Source: Acidobacteria bacterium RIFCSPLOWO2_12_FULL_67_14b
GTDB taxonomy: Bacteria; Acidobacteriota; Vicinamibacteria; Vicinamibacterales; UBA2999
Assembly: GCA_001768615.1 (NCBI GenBank)
Contig: MELE01000169.1
Span: 19,122 to 61,588 of the forward strand
DNA: 42,467 nucleotides
Direction of reading: 5' to 3'
A program made the position numbers and the translations under genes. This document shows positions 12,111-34,524 of the stretch, piece by piece. How positions within the stretch are numbered: position 1 is the first letter of the stretch; every line of letters starts with the position of its first letter. Below the pieces are notes generated by a model. That model was not told where the DNA came from. It saw only the letters and a list, made by a program, of their open reading frames with translations, and did not search any database.

Positions 12111-14330
12111 ATGGCCCAGCGAGCGGCCTCGGCCGCCGACATCACCAGGAACGCCGTGAACCTGGCCCGTGCCATCACGATCGGGCTGCGCGCCTGGGGT
12201 TTCTATCCGCCCGAGCACCCGGCCGTCGGGTTGGCCGTCGACAAGCTCGTGGCCGCCTCGGCCGAGGCCGCGTCGGGCGGGCTGTTCCAACTGGCGGTCA
12301 CGCCCCACGCCATCCTCGTCGACGGCCTGGCCATCGAGGCGCCCGACCTGTCGGTCAGCGAGTGCGCCGCGCTGCTCCACGACCGCGACATCCTGCAGTT
12401 GACGTTTGTCGCGGCGCCCGAAGACCCCGTGATCCGCTCGCTGCTGACGATGCTGTCGCTCGATCGCGACGTCCGGAGGTCCCAGGGCGGGCCCGCGGCG
12501 ATCTGGGCGGCCGAGGCGCAGACCTCGGTCTTGGTCGAGCAGATCGACTACCAGGAGATCCTCGAGCGCGACTTCGACGAGGGCGCCGCGCGCCGCGACG
12601 CCACCTGGAAGGCGATCGTCCGGTCCATCATCATGGGCCGCAAGACGTTCAGCGCCGAGGAGCAGCAGCGCCTCCTCGAGATCTCGCGCGACGTCGGCGC
12701 CATCGGCGAGCTCGCCAAAGACAGTAAGGAGCCGTTCTGCACCCCCGACGGCTCGCCGCTGCTCACAACGCAAGCGGCGACGATCCTCGCCGTCTACCGG
12801 CACATCGCCAAAACGGTCAACGCCCTCGAGCCCGAACGCGCGCAGGAGGTGATGCAGTCGCTGACCCTCGCCGCCTCCGGCCTCGACCCGGCCACGGCGT
12901 TCGAGTTGCTCCGCCAGGAGGAAAGCGGCGACGAGTCGATCCAGATCGTCAGCGCGCTCAAGCAGACCTTCGACGATCAACAGGTCGCCATGCTGCTGGC
13001 GCGTGCCATGGCCACGCCGGGCCATCCGACGACGCGGCTGGCGCAGGTGCTCGATACGATTGCGCCCGACGATGCGCGCAAGCGGCGCGTGCTGACGCTG
13101 GCCAAGCGCCTGATCAGCGAGCGCGACTTCGGCAACAAGCGGCCGATCGACGACATCCGCCAGTCGCTCGACGAGTTGCTGCTCAAGTACGACGAGTCGA
13201 CGTACGTGTCGGCCGAATACCGCCAGTCGATGGACCAGGCCGCCTCGCGCGCCGCGGAGCTGGCCGCGCGCGGCCTGCCCCCCGAGATCGACGCCTGGCT
13301 CGAGACCCTCGGTCACGACAGCGTCCGCCGCCTGTCGGGCCAGTTGCTGATGGACCTGCTGCGCAACGAGAGCAGCCCGGAACGCGCCGCCGAAACCGCG
13401 CGCGACATGAGCGCGTTCGTCGAAGAGCTCCTGCTGGCGGGCGCCTTTGCCGACGGCGTGCCGGTGATCCAAGAGCTGTCGGCGGGCGCCGTGCGCACGC
13501 CGCCGATGGCCCCCGACGCGTGCCGCCAGGCGATCGACACCGTCGGCCGCTCGACCGCCTTCGCCGAAGCGGCGTCGGCGATCGCCGAGTTGTCGGCGGC
13601 CGAGTTCGCGGTGTTCGACACCCTGGCGCGCGCCATCGGGCCCTCGGCGGCGCCCGGCCTGCTGGCCGCCTGCCAGCGCGAAGAGGGCGGCCTCGGCACG
13701 GACCGCGCCACGGCGCTGCTCGTCACCTTCGGCCCGCCGGCAATCCCGGTCCTGGCCGCGGCGGTGGAGGGCTCGAAGTGGTTCGTGCAGCGCGAAATCG
13801 CCCGCGTGCTCGGCCAGATCGGGACGCCGGCCGCGGTGCCGCCGCTGCAGGCCCTGCTCCGCCGCACGGATCTTCGCGTCATGCAGGCCGCAGTGGCGTC
13901 GCTCGCGCGCATCAACGACCCGTCGGCGGCGCGGGCGCTGCACATGGTCCTCAAAGCGACGACGGGCGAAGCCCGCGCGGCGGTGATCGCGGCGCTGGTC
14001 GGCCTCAAGGACGCGCGCGTGGTGCCGATGCTCGCGCGCGTGCTGAGCGACAGCGATCCGTTCGGCGAGGAGTTTCCCCTCGTGCTCGAAACGCTGGCCG
14101 CCCTGGCATCGATCCGCGACGACGGCGCGCTCAAGGAGATCGCCGCGATCGCGCGTCAGCGCCGATGGCTCGCCTGGGGACGGACCGGCCAGCTGCGCGA
14201 GGCCGCGCTCCGGGCCCTGGCGCGCATCGGCACGCCGAAGGCACGGCACGCGCTCGCCGATCTCGCAACGACGGGCGACTTCTTTCTGCGCCGGCTGGCG
14301 GCCGCGGCGGCCGCCAAGGGAGGACAGTGA
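12111..14330 (+). CDS. HEAT-repeat protein with shared N-terminal region (module copy 1)
   Basis: This 739-residue soluble protein has no signal peptide or membrane helix. Residues about 15-125 form a region shared with the next three proteins, with the motif FYPPEHPAV at 31-39, then IDYQEIL at about 145-151. The middle is helical and acidic. From about residue 535 to the end, repeated helix pairs of HEAT type are visible: AIPVLAAAVEG, QIGTPAAVPPLQALLRR and ARIGTPKARHALADLA. HEAT arrays bind proteins, so it may be a scaffold for its HD-GYP partner, which overlaps its stop by one base (TGATG). It is paralogous along its whole length to 15745-18021. Molecular function is not known. Confidence 0.85.
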   Translation: MAQRAASAADITRNAVNLARAITIGLRAWGFYPPEHPAVGLAVDKLVAASAEAASGGLFQLAVTPHAILVDGLAIEAPDLSVSECAALLHDRDILQLTFVAAPEDPVIRSLLTMLSLDRDVRRSQGGPAAIWAAEAQTSVLVEQIDYQEILERDFDEGAARRDATWKAIVRSIIMGRKTFSAEEQQRLLEISRDVGAIGELAKDSKEPFCTPDGSPLLTTQAATILAVYRHIAKTVNALEPERAQEVMQSLTLAASGLDPATAFELLRQEESGDESIQIVSALKQTFDDQQVAMLLARAMATPGHPTTRLAQVLDTIAPDDARKRRVLTLAKRLISERDFGNKRPIDDIRQSLDELLLKYDESTYVSAEYRQSMDQAASRAAELAARGLPPEIDAWLETLGHDSVRRLSGQLLMDLLRNESSPERAAETARDMSAFVEELLLAGAFADGVPVIQELSAGAVRTPPMAPDACRQAIDTVGRSTAFAEAASAIAELSAAEFAVFDTLARAIGPSAAPGLLAACQREEGGLGTDRATALLVTFGPPAIPVLAAAVEGSKWFVQREIARVLGQIGTPAAVPPLQALLRRTDLRVMQAAVASLARINDPSAARALHMVLKATTGEARAAVIAALVGLKDARVVPMLARVLSDSDPFGEEFPLVLETLAALASIRDDGALKEIAAIARQRRWLAWGRTGQLREAALRALARIGTPKARHALADLATTGDFFLRRLAAAAAAKGGQ

Positions 14331-15682
14331 TGGCGTTCTCTCCGGAAGATCTCGTGCGGCGTATCGGCGCGGCGGTCCGCGCCGCCGAACTCTACGCCCC
14401 CAGCCATCCGCTGGTGCAGCGGACGGCCGCCGGCCTGCACGCCGCCCTGCTGCCGGCCCTCGACGAGTCGCCGGCCGTGATCATCGGCTTCCTCGAAGAC
14501 GACGTCGTCGTGAACGACTTCCGCCTGCAGAGGGGCTCGGCGACGCTGGCCGGGCTGTTGCGCGACATGCGCGATCGGAAGATCGAGAAGATCACGTTCG
14601 GCCGCGGCGTCGAGATCAGCGAGGTCCGGGCGCTGATGGACGAGCTGGCCGATCGCATCTCCCGCACCGGCGTCGGCGACCGGCTGACGGCCCGCGGCAT
14701 CCGCCGCATCCAGGTCGGCAAGGTGGCGATCGAGGAAGAAGACGATTCGGAGGTCGGCCTCGCGGCGGCCAAGGAGGTCTATTCGAAGGCGGTCACGGGC
14801 GCCGAGACCATCTGGGGGGCCGTGAAGGCCGGCGGGCAGCCGGACCCCGCGGACGCGCGCGGCATCATCGACAGTCTCTCGCGTCTCGTCTACCAGGACC
14901 GCACCTCCCTGCTCGCGCTCACGGCGCTGAAGCGCTACGACAATTACACCTTCACGCACATGGTGAACGTGGCCGCGCTGTCGATGGCGATGGCGCGCTC
15001 GCTCGACCTCGAGGGGCCGATGCTGCGCGAGTTCGGCTTCGCCGCGCTGATGCACGACATCGGCAAGGTGAAAACGCCGCTCGAGATCCTGAACAAGCCC
15101 GACAAGCTGACCACCGAGGAGTTCACGATCATGAAGCTCCACGTCGTCGAGGGCGCGCACATCCTGCGGCGCACGCCCGAGACGCCGGCGCTGGCGCCGG
15201 TGGTCGCCTTCGAACATCACCTCAAGCAGGACCTCAGCGGCTACCCGGAGAACATCGGCTCGCGAAAGCTCAACCTGTGCACGATGGTCGTGAGCGTGGT
15301 CGACGTGTTCGACGCGCTGCGCAGCAATCGCGCCTACCGCGCGGGCATGGCGACCGATCGCATCCGCCACATCATGGCGCAGCAGGACGGCACGGCGTTC
15401 GATCGCGCGCTGCTCCGCCGGTTCGTCAACCTGATGGGCCTCTTCCCGGTTGGCACGCTCGTCCGGCTGAACACGGAGGAGGTCGGCGTGGTCACGCAGA
15501 CGCATCCCGAGGACCCGTTCCGCCCGCAGGTGAAGCTGATCCTCGACCGGAAGGGCGCGCCGTATGAGACGCCGCTCCTCACCAATACCTGGGATCGCGA
15601 CGATCGCGGGGAGTTCCCGCGGGACGTCATCGAGGCCGTCGACGGACAACAGGTGGGCATCGACCCGTTGGCCTATTTATAG
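14330..15682 (+). CDS. HD-GYP domain protein (module copy 1)
   Basis: HD-GYP proteins usually hydrolyse cyclic di-GMP. In this 450-residue protein the N-terminal ~110 residues are the shared region (LYAPSHPLVQ at 21-30). The C-terminal domain starts about residue 205 with YDNYTFTHMVNVA. The metal pair is H242-D243 (HDIGKVKTP), then LNKPDKLT, an HH at FEHH, and GYP at 304-306. The usual DG before the GYP is changed: the sequence reads HHLKQDLSGYP, so activity may be altered. It has no receiver domain; signal input is probably through the N-terminal region or the HEAT partner. Confidence 0.92.
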   Translation: MAFSPEDLVRRIGAAVRAAELYAPSHPLVQRTAAGLHAALLPALDESPAVIIGFLEDDVVVNDFRLQRGSATLAGLLRDMRDRKIEKITFGRGVEISEVRALMDELADRISRTGVGDRLTARGIRRIQVGKVAIEEEDDSEVGLAAAKEVYSKAVTGAETIWGAVKAGGQPDPADARGIIDSLSRLVYQDRTSLLALTALKRYDNYTFTHMVNVAALSMAMARSLDLEGPMLREFGFAALMHDIGKVKTPLEILNKPDKLTTEEFTIMKLHVVEGAHILRRTPETPALAPVVAFEHHLKQDLSGYPENIGSRKLNLCTMVVSVVDVFDALRSNRAYRAGMATDRIRHIMAQQDGTAFDRALLRRFVNLMGLFPVGTLVRLNTEEVGVVTQTHPEDPFRPQVKLILDRKGAPYETPLLTNTWDRDDRGEFPRDVIEAVDGQQVGIDPLAYL

Positions 15683-15729
15683 GGGTCAGACCCCCTCCAG
15701 AATTACGGCGTTGAGGGGGCCTGACCCCT
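15681..15729 (+). terminator. 17-bp hairpin after HD-GYP copy 1
   Basis: AGGGGTCAGACCCCCTC-type arms at 15681-15697 and 15713-15729 pair over 17 bp with one mismatch and a 15-base loop, starting in the HD-GYP stop codon. TTAAAATCT follows. It may end the first module's transcript, or be a GGGGTCAGACCCC repeat element. The second module starts 16 bp downstream. Confidence 0.5.
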
Positions 15730-15744
15730 TAAAATCTCTCATCA

Positions 15745-18021
15745 GTGTCGCAGCCGACTCCGCCCCCCGACCCGCTCGCGCCAGACGTGGCCGCACGCCT
15801 CGCGGAATTCGCGCGGGCCTGCAAGGCCGCCACACGCATCGTGTCGTTGTACCCGGAGAGCCATCCGTCCATACAGTTCGCGCTGTCGCGCATCGTCGAG
15901 GCCGGCAGGCAGGCGGTAACGAACGGGCCGTTCGCCATCACGGTGCTGCCGGACGGCCTGCTGGTCGGCGGACGTGGGCTGGCCAAGCCCGATCCGGCGG
16001 CGACCGAGCTCGCCGCGCTGCTCCACCTGCAGTTGATCGGCGAGATCACGTTGATGGACACGCTCGGGGCCGGCGAGTGGCACACGTTCCTGTCGCTGCT
16101 CGCCAAGACGCCCGAAGACGCGCGGGCCATGGGCGGGGTCGCCAAGGCCTGGGACGCGTCGGGCACCAAGGCGATCGCGCTGAAAGAGATCGACTATGCC
16201 GAAGTGCTGCGCGAGCGCGCGGGCGGCGGCGAGTCGGCGTCGTGGGATCGCATCCTGGCGACGCTGAGCGAGGAGCAGGGCGAAGGCGGCGTCCCGGGCC
16301 AGCCGGCCATGGCGAGCATGCTCGAAATGGCGAACGACCCGGGACGCCTCGTGCAGTTTGCCGAGAAGCTGCAGGAACACGGCCGCGCCGCGGGCGACGA
16401 CTCGATCCAGCAGCGCAAGTCGCTGCTGGAACTGATGCACGGCCTGGCGAACTACGCCGCGGAACGCAAGCCCGAAGAGCTCGACGCGGTGCTGAACAAG
16501 ATGGCGGGCGCGGCGGCGCAGATGTCACCGGACATGCTGCTCACGCTCATCACCGATCCGCCGCCGCTCGCCTCGTCGGGCGGCGGCGGCCAGCGCATGG
16601 ACCTGGGCGGCGAGCTGCAATCGCGCCTCACCGACGAGATGCTGGCCAAGTTCCTGGTCGACAACGTCGTCAAGGACGCCGGCGCGAGCAGCCGCCTGGC
16701 GGCGGCATTCCAGACCCTGGTGCCGGATCGGGATCGGCAGCAGAGCATCCTGGCCGCGGCCACCGAGCAGGCCGCGGCGATGTTCGGGCGGGATTCGGAA
16801 TTCCAGAAGGTGTGGTCGAGCTCAACCGAAATCCTGACGTCGTACTCCGACTCGCAGTTCGTGTCGGAAGACTACGCCCGCGAGCTGAGCCTCGCCCGCA
16901 GCCAGGCCGTGGACGTCGAGAAGATCGGCGACGACCCGCCCAATCGCATCCGGGCGTGGGTGTCGACCGTCAGCGACGACGAGATCCGGGCCCTCGATCA
17001 GCACCTGCTGCTCGACCTGCTGACCATCGAGGCGCGGCCGGAGGCGTGGGCCGGCGTGCTGGACGTGGCGGTGTCGAGTATCGAGCAGCTGGTGCTGGTC
17101 GGCGACATGACGCTGGCCTCCCAGCTGGTCGATTGCATTGTCGGCGTGGCGCGGCAGGAATCGTCGCCGTTTGCGGCGCATGCCGCGGCGGGAGTCACGC
17201 GGCTGGTGGACGGATCGCTGGTCCGCCACCTGGTGCTGTTCCTGCGCCAGGCCACCGACAACGAGGTGGGCCTCGCCAAGCAGATGTGTAAGACCGTCGG
17301 GCCGGCGCTGGTCGAGCCGCTGGCGGATGCGCTGGCGGCGGAAGACAACCCGCGGACGGTGCGGCGCCTGCGCGACATCCTGATCGGCTTCGGACCGGCG
17401 GCGCGTCAGTACGCCGACGAGCTGCGCAGCTCGCCGAATCCCGCGGTGCGGCGCGCCGCGGTCGATCTGCTTCGCGCGCTCGGCGGCGAAGCGGCGTTGC
17501 CGGACTTGCGCGGGCTGCTGGATGACGCCGACCCTCAGGTGCAACGCGAGGCGCTTCGGGCGATCGTTCAGATCGGCACCAACGAAGCGTACGAAGCGCT
17601 CGAACAGGCGCTCAAGAGCGGCGAGCCTCACACCCGGGAGGCCATCCTGCAGGCGCTGGGCGCGCTCCGCGACGAGCGGGCGGCACCGCTGTTCGTCTAC
17701 ATCCTCACGCACTCCGGGTACAAGGGCTCGCTCGAGACGGTCTACATCTCGTCGATCGAGTCGCTGGGCCGTGTCGCCAGCGATGAGCGGTCGGTGTCGA
17801 CGTTGACAGAGATCCTGCACCGGGGCGAATGGTATGCGCCGAACCGGACGGCGCGCATTCGCGCGGCGGCGGCGCGGGCGCTGCGCGCCATCGGCACGGC
17901 CAGCGCCGAGCGGACGTTGAACGAGGCGGTGTCGGGCGGGGCGGGCGGCGTGAAGCGCGCGGCCAGGGCGGCGCTGGCGGAACCGGCGCCGCCACGCACC
18001 GCGATGCGAAGGGCCAAATGA
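15745..18021 (+). CDS. HEAT-repeat protein with shared N-terminal region (module copy 2)
   Basis: This 758-residue protein is a paralogue of the gene at 12111-14330. It has the N-terminal region with LYPESHPSI at 35-43, the same IDYAEVL segment (about 150), and the related middle segment ending VSTVSDDEIRALDQHLLLDL. HEAT-type repeats fill residues about 530-750 (ALGGEAALPDLRGLLDD, IVQIGTNEAYEALEQALKS and others). The start is a GTG at 15745. It ends in a four-base overlap with the second HD-GYP gene. It carries no signal peptide or membrane segment, so it is cytoplasmic. A scaffold or sensor for the HD-GYP protein is the best guess. Confidence 0.85.
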   Translation: MSQPTPPPDPLAPDVAARLAEFARACKAATRIVSLYPESHPSIQFALSRIVEAGRQAVTNGPFAITVLPDGLLVGGRGLAKPDPAATELAALLHLQLIGEITLMDTLGAGEWHTFLSLLAKTPEDARAMGGVAKAWDASGTKAIALKEIDYAEVLRERAGGGESASWDRILATLSEEQGEGGVPGQPAMASMLEMANDPGRLVQFAEKLQEHGRAAGDDSIQQRKSLLELMHGLANYAAERKPEELDAVLNKMAGAAAQMSPDMLLTLITDPPPLASSGGGGQRMDLGGELQSRLTDEMLAKFLVDNVVKDAGASSRLAAAFQTLVPDRDRQQSILAAATEQAAAMFGRDSEFQKVWSSSTEILTSYSDSQFVSEDYARELSLARSQAVDVEKIGDDPPNRIRAWVSTVSDDEIRALDQHLLLDLLTIEARPEAWAGVLDVAVSSIEQLVLVGDMTLASQLVDCIVGVARQESSPFAAHAAAGVTRLVDGSLVRHLVLFLRQATDNEVGLAKQMCKTVGPALVEPLADALAAEDNPRTVRRLRDILIGFGPAARQYADELRSSPNPAVRRAAVDLLRALGGEAALPDLRGLLDDADPQVQREALRAIVQIGTNEAYEALEQALKSGEPHTREAILQALGALRDERAAPLFVYILTHSGYKGSLETVYISSIESLGRVASDERSVSTLTEILHRGEWYAPNRTARIRAAAARALRAIGTASAERTLNEAVSGGAGGVKRAARAALAEPAPPRTAMRRAK

Positions 18022-19415
18022 TGGATCCGGTCACGCGTCTTCGTGCGGCGGACGACTTCATGCGGCGGCTCGGGGCGGCCCTGCGTGGCGCGCAGTTGTA
18101 CGCGCCCTCGCACCCGCTGGTGCAGCGCGCGTTTGACGGCCTCAACGAAGCGATCACGCAATTGCTGGAGGATCAGCCGTCGATCGCGATCGGCATCATC
18201 GGCCAGGAGGTGATCGTCGGCGACCTCCCGCTGCCGCGCGCGGCGGAGTCGATGGGCGAGATGATGCGGCGTCTCAAGTCGCTCGGGATCGAGCGCATCG
18301 TCTTCGATCGCGGCGTGACGCCGGAGGAGCTCTCGACCCTGGCGCTCACCATAGCGCATCCCGAGCGACGGCCCGGGCAGGACGCGGCCGGAGTCGAGCC
18401 GAGTGATCCGCTTGGCGCGCTGAACTCGCTGCCGCACATCCGCGTCGGACGCATCCAGACGGAACAGCGCGTGGAGAAATCCGCCGCCGACGTGGCGACG
18501 ATCCGGCGGCTGTACGCCGACGCGTCCACCGTCGCCGGTTCGGTCTGGGAGACGGCCAAGACCGAGGGTACGCCGGATCCGAAAGCGGCCCGCGCGCTGA
18601 TCGATTCGCTGGCGCAGGCCGTGTCGGCCAATCGCACGGCGCTCATCGCCCTGACGGCGCTCAAGAACTACGACAACTACACGTTCACGCACATGGTGAA
18701 CGTCTCGATTCTGACGATGTCGCAGGCGCGAGCGCTGGGCATGGACGGCGCCCCGCTGCGCGAGCTCGGCCTCGCCGCGCTGATGCACGACATCGGCAAG
18801 GTGCGCACGCCGACCGAGATCCTCAACAAACCGGACAAGCTCACCGACGATGAGTTCACGATCATGCGGATGCACGTCGTCGACGGCGCCGAGATCCTGC
18901 GGCGGACGCCGGAGATGCCGGCGATTGCGCCGGTGATCGCCTTCGAGCATCACCTGCGCCTCGACGGCACCGGCTACCCGTTCAAAGTTGCGCGAACGGG
19001 CCTCAACGTCGGGACCATGCTCTGCAGTATCGCCGATGTCTACGATGCGATGCGGTCGCAGCGCTCCTACCAGCAGGCGTTTCCGTCGGACCGCATTCTC
19101 CAGGTGATGAAGCGCAACGACGGCCAGCAGTTCGATCAGCACCTGGTGCGGCGCTTCACGCAGCTGCTCGGCATCTATCCGCCGGGCAACCTGGTGCGGC
19201 TCGACACCGGCGCGCTCGCCGTCGTGCTGGCCGTGCACGCGCCCGATCCGTACAAGCCGCGCGTGAAGGTGATCATCACGCCCGGTGGCGAGCGGCTCGA
19301 GACGCCGTACGATCTGAGCCTGTGGGAAGTCCCGCCCGACTCGCAGGGGCCGAAGGCGGTGACGGCGCCGCTCGATCCCGCCGAGCACGGCATCGACCCG
19401 CTCACCTACCTGTAA
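18018..19415 (+). CDS. HD-GYP domain protein (module copy 2)
   Basis: This 465-residue protein repeats the layout of copy 1. Residues 1-110 are the shared region (LYAPSHPLVQ at 27-36), a linker with IRVGRIQTEQ follows, and the HD-GYP domain starts near YDNYTFTHMVNV. The metal pair is H257-D258 in HDIGKVRTP. FEHHLRLDGTGYP keeps the full HH-x3-DGxGYP motif, with GYP at 319-321, so this copy is more likely to be an active phosphodiesterase than copy 1. Start ATG overlaps the HEAT stop. Hydrolysis of c-di-GMP is inferred from the family. Confidence 0.93.
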   Translation: MMDPVTRLRAADDFMRRLGAALRGAQLYAPSHPLVQRAFDGLNEAITQLLEDQPSIAIGIIGQEVIVGDLPLPRAAESMGEMMRRLKSLGIERIVFDRGVTPEELSTLALTIAHPERRPGQDAAGVEPSDPLGALNSLPHIRVGRIQTEQRVEKSAADVATIRRLYADASTVAGSVWETAKTEGTPDPKAARALIDSLAQAVSANRTALIALTALKNYDNYTFTHMVNVSILTMSQARALGMDGAPLRELGLAALMHDIGKVRTPTEILNKPDKLTDDEFTIMRMHVVDGAEILRRTPEMPAIAPVIAFEHHLRLDGTGYPFKVARTGLNVGTMLCSIADVYDAMRSQRSYQQAFPSDRILQVMKRNDGQQFDQHLVRRFTQLLGIYPPGNLVRLDTGALAVVLAVHAPDPYKPRVKVIITPGGERLETPYDLSLWEVPPDSQGPKAVTAPLDPAEHGIDPLTYL

Positions 19416-33471: not shown

Positions 33472-34524
33472 CTAGTCGGCCTGGGCGATGCGAACCCCGT
33501 TTTTGCCCGAATCCTTGACTTGGTACATCGCCATATCGGCCGCACGTACCAACTCTTCAGCAGAAGCCGCCACATCGGGCAATGTGGCCACCCCGACCGA
33601 CGCCGTGAGCCGCAGGCTCAACCCGCTCCCCGCCAGGAATGGATGGGCCGCCAGCCGCTCACGCACGCGGTCTCCTACCGCCGCAGCACCTTCAGAACCG
33701 GTGTCGGGGAGGATGAGCGCAAATTCATCGCCACCAAACCGCGCCACCACGTCCGTTTCACGCGCGCAGCGGCGAATCACGGCCGCCGCTTCCACCAGGG
33801 CCGTGCTGCCGGCCTGGTGGCCGTGATTGTCGTTGATGCCCTTGAAGCCATCGAGGTCCAGGAACAACAGCGACAACGGGCGACCCGACCGCGAGGCGCG
33901 CTTGGCCTCGCGACGCAGCACCTGATTCAAGTACCGCGAGTTGTAGAGCTGCGTCAGGTCGTCGGTCACCGACAACGCTTCCGACCGCCGGAGCCGCAAG
34001 GCGTTGTCGAGCGCCTGCGCCGGCCCTTCGAGCACCACGCCGAGAGACTGGCCCACCGCCGGCGTGATGTGCGGCGGCTGCGACGAGGCCTGACGCTCCG
34101 CGACCACGAGCGCCGCGACGGTTTGCGCGCGACAGCGCAGCGGCCAGCCGAGCACCGCGCCCGCGGCGCCCGTCGCGCGCGGATCCTTGCGCAGATCCGC
34201 CGTCGCGAGCTCGCGGCCGTGGCCCATGACCCAGCGCGCCACGCCGGTCGCAACCGGCGTCAGCGCCGGCCCCATACCGCGTGACGACAAGACAACGACT
34301 TGGCCGTCGAGATCGGCCGCAAACACACCGCACGCCGACGCCTTGAACCACTCGTCGGCAAGTTCCACGACCAGCCCGCCGATGGTTTCCGGATCGAGCG
34401 TGTCGTGTACGGCGCGTAGCAGGGCGAGCGCCGTCTCAGGCCGTTCGAGTCGGCCTTTGAGCGCTCGCTGGCTGCGACGCAGGCGGGCGGCCAGATCCGG
34501 ACGGCGAGAACCGCCGTAAGTCAT
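33472..34524 (-). CDS. GAF-GGDEF diguanylate cyclase
   Basis: Diguanylate cyclases make cyclic di-GMP from two GTP. The 350-residue cytoplasmic protein has an N-terminal GAF-like sensor (about 30-170: [20 protein letters not shown]) and a C-terminal GGDEF domain. The active site GGDEF is at 264-268, with [17 protein letters not shown] at the domain start. RETD, five residues before GGDEF, is the inhibitory I-site, so product feedback is likely. It shares strand with, and precedes, mreB by 29 bp. Ligand for the GAF domain unknown. Confidence 0.94.

Follow-up and report, generated by a model that had tools for sequence, protein, structure and literature searches.

The window, a stretch of 42,467 nucleotides, contains four genes at 12111-19415, all on the plus strand, in the order HEAT, HD-GYP, HEAT, HD-GYP. 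HEAT1 (12111..14330, 739 aa) consists of an N-terminal domain shared by all four proteins (12129..12575, residues 7-155 as aligned) and HEAT repeats (Pfam HEAT_2, 3.7e-18), with the best HEAT_2 stretch at 13746..13997 (residues 546-629). It overlaps HDG1 (14330..15682, 450 aa) by 1 bp in the sequence TGATG. HDG1 carries the shared domain at 14330..14764 (residues 1-145 as aligned) and an HD-GYP catalytic domain with the motifs HDIGK and HHLKQDLSGYP at 14942..15412 (HD_5, 4.1e-19). The second pair begins with HEAT2 (15745..18021, 758 aa, GTG start; HEAT_2, 1.4e-32), whose shared domain occupies 15745..16224 (residues 1-160) and whose best HEAT_2 stretch lies at 17416..17643 (residues 558-633). 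A 4-bp overlap joins it to HDG2 (18018..19415, 465 aa; HD_5, 9.1e-24), with the shared domain at 18018..18467 (residues 1-150) and the catalytic domain, containing HDIGK and HHLRLDGTGYP, at 18684..19145. These coordinates agree with the alternating quartet and the two overlaps described in the first-pass annotation. Between the pairs lies a REP-like inverted repeat, GGGGTCAGACCCC (15682..15728, no strand assigned), which is probably unrelated to the module. A promoter scan found no sigma-70-like site, and terminator-like matches were at background level (3 versus 2.6 in shuffled sequence).

The shared domain is marked by a nine-residue Y-x3-HP motif that starts at residues 31, 21, 35 and 27 of HEAT1, HDG1, HEAT2 and HDG2, respectively, exactly where it had been annotated (Y32, H36 and P37; Y22, H26 and P27; Y36, H40 and P41; Y28, H32 and P33). 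Pairwise BLASTP of the N-terminal regions was no more than suggestive, with E-values of 1e-4 for HEAT2/HDG2 and 0.026 for HEAT1/HDG1. Profile-profile comparison gave E-values of 2e-11 for HEAT1/HDG1 (score 70.7, maximum of 19.0 in 100 column shuffles) and 4.5e-9 for HEAT2/HDG2 (57.8 against 25.7), so that the two sides match each other well above shuffled columns. AlphaFold models of the HDG2 and HEAT2 domains, built from separate alignments (pLDDT 91.6 and 96.2), share the core order helix-helix-strand-strand-helix-strand-helix-helix-strand; the HDG2 model has in addition a short strand and one split helix, and that of HEAT2 has additional short helices. The two folds are thus related, and one homologous domain opens all four proteins, as had been claimed from alignment by eye. 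In both models the motif Tyr and His lie in the turn that connects helix 1 to helix 2. Their conservation is 0.99 and 0.98 in 96 HEAT-side rows and 1.0 and 0.95 in 96 HDG-side rows. These figures are fairer than the invariance seen in alignments A2, made without four HD-GYP-side rows (L142, L162, L163, L169), and A3, made without twelve HEAT-side rows (L140, L146, L175 and L176 twice each; L145, L159, L162, L171), which is overstated because several of the omitted rows lack the motif His.

The domain is uncatalogued. Known Pfam domains considered for a match included DUF3391 and DUF3369. Pfam gave no match in the shared region of the window proteins, and in a scan of 43 domain members no family matched more than two of them among the 25 of 27 families listed; the best weak scores were those of YABBY (E 0.081, two members) and UbiD (E 0.0051, a single member). 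A PDB sequence search with the domain returned nothing significant. Foldseek against the PDB gave best E-values of 0.40 and 0.61, with none at or below 0.001, which does not by itself prove a new fold.

HDG1 and HDG2 match HD_5 with 69.4 and 84.5 bits (Pfam cut-off 27.2) and also match the HD model. Pfam found neither a receiver nor a GAF domain in them, consistent with their initial description as HD-GYP proteins devoid of a receiver. Neither protein has lost any of the seven metal ligands (H...HD...H...HH...D), the lysine of the HD motif or the GYP triad. We compared 86 HD-GYP rows, in which two genes are represented twice (L162/L092, L163/L091) and one row, L137, is truncated. All seven ligands are present in 80 rows, and five complete rows have lost one or more (L127, L128, L145, L171, L173); the triad residues G, Y and P are kept in 79, 80 and 82 rows. 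The acidic residue that defines the trinuclear (E/D-T-G) subgroup, at the position of PmGH E185, is found in 0/86 rows, and 76 rows have Tyr there. Because Tyr replaces this ligand (YTF), a dinuclear site is predicted. The glutamate of the full HHExxDGxGYP motif is likewise found in 0/86 rows, one of which has a gap. HDG1-type proteins read HHLKQDLSGYP (20/20 rows), whereas DGxGYP is kept in the HDG2 type (33/33). As the HHE glutamate is absent and HDG1 has DLSGYP, the substrate may differ or the activity may be low. Judged by these residues, the domain belongs to the HD-GYP class with a divergent rather than a canonical loop. The proteins probably destroy a cyclic-dinucleotide signal.

HEAT1 and HEAT2 match HEAT_2 with 66 and 112.2 bits (Pfam cut-off 27.7) and also match HEAT_PBS; the best stretches are in the C-terminal third of each protein. 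In 89 of 96 pairs the upstream partner matches our custom HEAT model. Seven fall below it (L127, L167, L207, L209, L211, L212, L213); of the three examined with Pfam, L127 and L207 gave sub-threshold HEAT_2 matches and L167 gave no match at all. The HEAT part resembles HEAT-repeat adaptors of the CpcE/NblB type weakly (32-42 bits versus cut-offs of 300 and 330), but the window proteins differ from these in having an extra N-terminal domain and an enzyme partner. An anti-phage defence reading was dropped, as the best PADLOC match (3e-8) covered brief HEAT or HD segments within far longer models and HDG2 had none.

Among structurally known enzymes, HDG2 matches PmGH (4mcw, E 4.1e-31) and V-cGAP3 (5z7c, E 1.2e-22) best. 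Both resemble it in HD_5, the metal ligands and the GYP triad. The window proteins differ from them in the N-terminal domain, the HEAT partner gene, the replaced HHE glutamate and the lack of any receiver or GAF domain found. Tyr in place of E185 (YTF) is shared with the Y/F subgroup as described in the excerpted text of PMC4159591; unlike that subgroup, the window proteins have HHL instead of HHE and are coupled to a HEAT gene. PmxA of Myxococcus xanthus is likewise an HD-GYP enzyme, one of unusual specificity that shows its highest activity with 3',3'-cGAMP according to the available portions of PMC8844925 and PMC8177086, but the legend of its locus, by which alone we compared it, names FecR and LysM neighbours and no HEAT. 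That no named system with this layout was known at the outset is in line with our search of literature listings, which found neither such a system nor a published description of one.

The HEAT proteins are paralogous (E 2e-44, 25% identity over 734 columns), and so are the HD-GYP proteins (E 3e-148, 47% identity over 454 columns), as the first-pass annotation had it. The proposed tandem duplication of a two-gene module is upheld by both trees, one calculated without rows L137, L162 and L163, the other a quick tree from which seven rows of five loci (L047, L050, L072, L078, L089) were removed by hand. A duplication in the Acidobacteriota lineage that copied the pair as a unit gave rise to the quartet. 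Among 20 chosen loci of the family, ten have the quartet, nine only pair 2 and one only pair 1, and the pair is thus a unit of gain and loss. For 53 thinned pairs, the distances among HEAT-side domains correlate with those among HDG-side domains (r = 0.78), a value reached in 0/2000 permutations. This correlation and the adjacency speak for co-inheritance, not for contact.

In its own genome the domain is found in these four proteins only (135/135 candidates scored). Elsewhere it is present in 105/297 sampled genomes of Acidobacteriota, the window's phylum, in 96/247 of the phylum of a Pelobacter locus and in 50/145 of that of an Omnitrophota locus, i.e. in more than a third of the genomes of each sample, the majority being without it. 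A second genome draw largely overlapped the Pelobacter-phylum sample and was excluded from these counts. By match spacing alone, at least 38/297, 43/247 and 21/145 genomes, respectively, have a pair; paired matches make up 94/150 and 100/150 of those listed for the first two samples and 42/80 in the complete Omnitrophota list. These counts are lower bounds because in many genomes they cover part of the first-look candidates, and only matches listed.

In the fetched loci, 96/100 domain-bearing HD-GYP genes sit directly after a domain-bearing partner, so that the adjacency expected from the initial description is the rule. Neither of the two outcomes named there as refuting the idea, unrelated N-terminal folds or HEAT and HD-GYP genes that are never neighbours, was thus observed. 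HEAT/HD-GYP pairs also occur in loci of other phyla, three in all. The count omits L128, L146 and L147-L156 (near copies or repeats). The loci were chosen and not random, one set consisting of lone matches on purpose and another mostly of pairs; 53 of the 96 pairs stem from loci retrieved by way of HEAT2 or HDG2 relatives, and at least one locus was retrieved twice (L059/L076). The pairs of five distant genomes are not an independent sample, since they were found through an HD-GYP relative. Pairing in loci fetched through domain matches is 43/47. Of the four unpaired HD-GYP genes, L161 lies at a contig edge, the partner gene of L145 is broken, and L192 and L219 have a masked flank. A 4-bp start/stop overlap is the nearest in-frame start in 53/96 pairs, a count that favours short distances because it takes the start nearest to the partner's stop. 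Conversely, 37/133 domain genes of other kinds have no HD-GYP gene following them, some due to contig ends or broken frames. The first 40 neighbour clusters listed contain no consistent partner beyond the pair. Flanking genes recur within Acidobacteriota, and signalling genes occur near some pairs only.

The module's initially annotated scope, the gene pairs, was borne out but proved too narrow, as the domain extends to other phyla and to GGDEF, PilZ and histidine kinase proteins. It is found in proteins of the architecture GGDEF-AAA_16-N-(N)-HEAT, where N is the shared domain, and in one N-HEAT-cNMP-PilZ protein, whose PilZ score is at its cut-off. It also heads PAS-histidine kinases with no HD-GYP partner and occurs on lone HEAT proteins in several lineages. 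Hence, pairing may not be its dedicated role. The window's own genome has 11 GGDEF and 3 PilZ matches. In some single chains two shared domains adjoin, and in the copies read Ser takes the place of the motif His. Such chains are compatible with a domain working in twos. Their use as a Rosetta stone failed, as the scores do not separate a HEAT-type from an HD-GYP-type copy; with neither copy distinctly HEAT-like or HD-GYP-like, these chains are not a clean fusion of the pair. A 23,632-aa open frame in G615 was dropped because it crosses masked bases.

That the same uncatalogued domain begins both proteins suggests that they work together. With moderate confidence we favour a model in which the two proteins form a complex and the HEAT partner, acting through the shared domain, places or regulates an HD-GYP phosphodiesterase with a dinuclear site. 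The genes of each pair would encode both subunits of a single signalling complex: upstream a putative HEAT-repeat scaffold, downstream a predicted dinuclear (tyrosine-type) phosphodiesterase that would linearise a cyclic dinucleotide, with c-di-GMP as the likeliest candidate. The homologous domains at both N-termini would join them, and the HEAT solenoid may deliver an input or place the enzyme at a target, making hydrolysis local or conditional. The window would then encode two such complexes in tandem. We infer the contact between the partners, the substrate and the control by the HEAT partner, as well as two points proposed in the first-pass annotation, the like-like nature of the contact and the reading of a signal by the HEAT protein. 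What we observed is that the domain is shared, that the genes are paired in loci of three phyla, that the pair was duplicated, that the metal sites of the window proteins are intact and that GGDEF, HD-GYP, PilZ and kinase proteins carry the domain.

The domain could instead be a sensor and not a dimer interface, the partners binding the same ligand or surface and acting in one pathway without a stable heteromer. Its presence on PAS-histidine kinases and lone HEAT proteins is as expected of a general input domain, and the near-invariant Tyr and His at the helix 1/2 turn may form a ligand site or a mere helix-hairpin cap. We think this unlikely given that the domain recurs on two adjacent genes in 96/100 cases and that two copies adjoin in single chains, with Ser for His in the copies read. 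Lone HEAT proteins in several lineages would also fit an adjacency that reflects operon history only, with independent regulators having an old duplicated domain in common. However, adjacency is kept in loci of three phyla, often with the 4-bp overlap, and the pair is duplicated and lost as a unit, which makes such a history very improbable.

A separate doubt concerns the substrate, which may be other than c-di-GMP (e.g. 3',3'-cGAMP), or one paralogue may be a regulatory receptor and not an enzyme. The missing HHE glutamate (0/86 rows) and the split between HDG1 (HHLKQDLSGYP, 20/20) and HDG2 (DGxGYP, 33/33) point that way, whereas both window proteins retain all seven metal ligands together with the HD lysine and the GYP triad. 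Furthermore, substitutions in the GYP and base-binding residues of PmGH did not substantially lower its activity, as reported in the excerpted text of PMC4159591. We regard a different substrate or a receptor role as rather doubtful.

Returning to the two-protein complex, a persistent question is how a cell keeps its many c-di-GMP enzymes from interfering with one another; one answer that has been proposed is to separate them in space by building them into complexes (PMC8844925, in the portion available). An enzyme and a HEAT scaffold encoded side by side with the same domain make this question directly testable. The domain also gives a handle on many proteins recognised so far by a HEAT repeat or an HD-GYP domain alone. 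Tentatively, the Y-x3-HP domain might be a new docking domain that serves cyclic-dinucleotide signalling across phyla, linking HEAT scaffolds to HD-GYP enzymes in trans and to GGDEF-AAA or PilZ modules in the same chain. If so, it would allow bacteria to assemble local c-di-GMP complexes in a modular fashion.

The four genes lie on the forward strand as two pairs: HEAT1 (12111-14330) with HDG1 (14330-15682), and HEAT2 (15745-18021) with HDG2 (18018-19415), each pair encoding a HEAT-repeat and an HD-GYP protein. A divergent pyrimidine nucleoside phosphorylase gene is found 32 bases from the HEAT1 start. The strongest Pfam HEAT stretches fall in the C-terminal third of both HEAT proteins (residues 546-629 of HEAT1 and 558-633 of HEAT2). 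The paralogy claimed in the first-pass annotation was borne out by pairwise comparison, with 25% identity over a full-length match for HEAT1 and HEAT2 and 47% identity for HDG1 and HDG2. A REP-like palindrome GGGGTCAGACCCC and its inverted near copy (15682-15728) separate HDG1 from HEAT2; GGGGTCAGACCCCY has 12 exact copies in the genome versus none for the reversed control.

The N-terminal regions of the HEAT and HD-GYP proteins, which carry the Y-x3-HP motif, are homologous. Single-sequence BLASTP gave only hints of this (E-values of 1e-4 and 0.026), but separately built profiles matched with E-values of 2e-11 for HEAT1/HDG1, 1.6e-9 for both HEAT1/HDG2 and HEAT2/HDG1, and 4.5e-9 for HEAT2/HDG2, and column shuffles and a reversed profile scored far lower. 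A Pelobacter HEAT profile matched a Pelobacter/Omnitrophota HD-GYP profile with an E-value of 1.2e-8, whereas, counter to homology, the three-row Pelobacter HEAT profile reached only 0.00074 against HDG1 and 0.012 against HDG2. AlphaFold models of the HD-GYP-side and HEAT-side domains (mean pLDDT of 91.6 from 61 rows and 96.2 from 74 rows, respectively) have an identical core order of elements, and the motif maps to the turn joining helices 1 and 2. Its Tyr and His are invariant across 43 aligned members and retained at 95 to 100% in 96 pairs. The common N-terminus proposed for all four proteins thus stands. A Pfam scan of the domain gave no consistent family, a PDB sequence search no significant relative (best E-value of 0.038), and a Foldseek search with the models nothing significant.

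In an 83-row tree, HDG1 (20 rows) and HDG2 (33 rows) form sister clades with a support of 100/99, and HEAT1 (19 rows) and HEAT2 (29 rows) are likewise sisters in a 71-row tree (SH-aLRT of 97), in agreement with the suggested tandem duplication. The nearest relatives of the HD-GYP clades, loci L135, L136 and L174 (join support of 93/66), also lie near HEAT1 and HEAT2, in an open fork. With parallel sister clades on the two trees and the same loci close to both, duplication of the whole pair in one piece is the most likely origin. Among 20 chosen family loci, ten contain the quartet (counting L060, where the contig ends before HDG2, and L053), nine pair 2 only and one pair 1 only. In L053, pair 2 is whole and HEAT1 and HDG1 are broken into overlapping frames by decay or assembly error.

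Alignment with the reference HD-GYP structure PmGH (4mcw) showed all seven metal ligands in 80 of 86 rows, both window proteins included, and by this measure their metal site is intact. The position of PmGH E185 is Tyr in 76 of the 86 rows, which a passage in PMC4159591 gives as a trait of the second HD-GYP subgroup. The HHE glutamate position is occupied by Leu (70), Arg (7), Ile (4), Met (4) or a gap (1). The substrate loop reads HHLKQDLSGYP in 20/20 HDG1 rows and HHLxxDGxGYP in 33/33 HDG2 rows; this divergence suggests that the two differ in specificity or rate. At two loci (L127, L128), HD-GYP partners without GYP and with lost metal ligands still lie beside a domain-bearing gene, and are possibly non-enzymatic versions. 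The substrate is probably c-di-GMP, although the proteins may act on a different one. The window also encodes a 350-aa GGDEF protein (33472-34524, reverse strand), and a PilZ match lies on the same contig, some 0.6 kb before the window begins. According to a review (PMC8177086), dinuclear HD-GYPs hydrolyze in one step only, so c-di-GMP, if it is what these enzymes act on, would be expected to yield pGpG.

The domain profile matches 105/297 genomes of the window's phylum; for the phyla to which a Pelobacter and an Omnitrophota locus belong, the figures are 96/247 and 50/145. Phyla are named here according to record titles and the taxonomy attached to them. In the window's own genome, the domain occurs in just these four proteins (135/135 candidates scored). 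In the fetched loci, 96 of 100 domain-bearing HD-GYP genes lie directly downstream of a domain-bearing partner (43/47 among loci reached via domain hits), confirming the neighborhood conservation, and 89 of these 96 partner proteins match our HEAT model. Five distant genomes, which had been reached via an HD-GYP relative, were inspected and each contains the adjacent pair, with two pairs each in G331 and G334. When the nearest in-frame HD-GYP start is taken, a choice favoring short distances, 53/96 pairs show a 4-bp overlap between that start and the stop of the partner gene. This adjacency may be mere operon history; the distances among HEAT-side and HD-GYP-side domains correlate with r of 0.78 (53 pairs).

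The domain is also found in N-PAS-HisKA-HATPase kinases (L186, L216, L217, L218, L221) and in GGDEF-AAA_16-N-N-HEAT proteins, roughly 1430-1460 aa long, that open with GGDEF (L140, L146, L195, L196, L198; assigned by Pfam in L140, L195 and L198 only). One N domain was detected in the same GGDEF-AAA_16 type in L214 (Pfam) and in L215 and L220 (our GGDEF model). The motif His is Ser in the two-domain chains read (L140, L146, L175 and the first copy of L176). L197 encodes N-HEAT-cNMP_binding-PilZ in an open-ended gene, with PilZ just at the cut-off. Of two lone N-HEAT genes, that of L131 has an HD-domain gene directly upstream and a HisKA kinase downstream (Pfam), and that of L133 has flanking genes that begin alike, judged by their starts. 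Eight loci outside the window's family have a third, small HEAT-repeat gene (188-267 aa) convergent with the HD-GYP gene, with a spacing that ranges from a 31-base gap to a 58-base overlap: L162 (2855-3445), L163 (5909-6712), L199 (2690-3283), L222 (785-1351), L223 (4768-5439), L224 (710-1324), L225 (468-1052) and L226 (4875-5450). Pfam covered four of these eight, and a search of all eight proteins for the N-terminal domain gave no match.

Judged by their listings, no papers on HD-GYP, HEAT repeats, c-di-GMP and Acidobacteria described such a module; for HEAT variants combined with HD-GYP this covers 20 of 86 papers, none of which counted HD-GYP. The shared N domain may be a sensor; the simplest account is that the HEAT and HD-GYP proteins would form a heteromer through it, in which the HEAT solenoid would serve as the control or address part.
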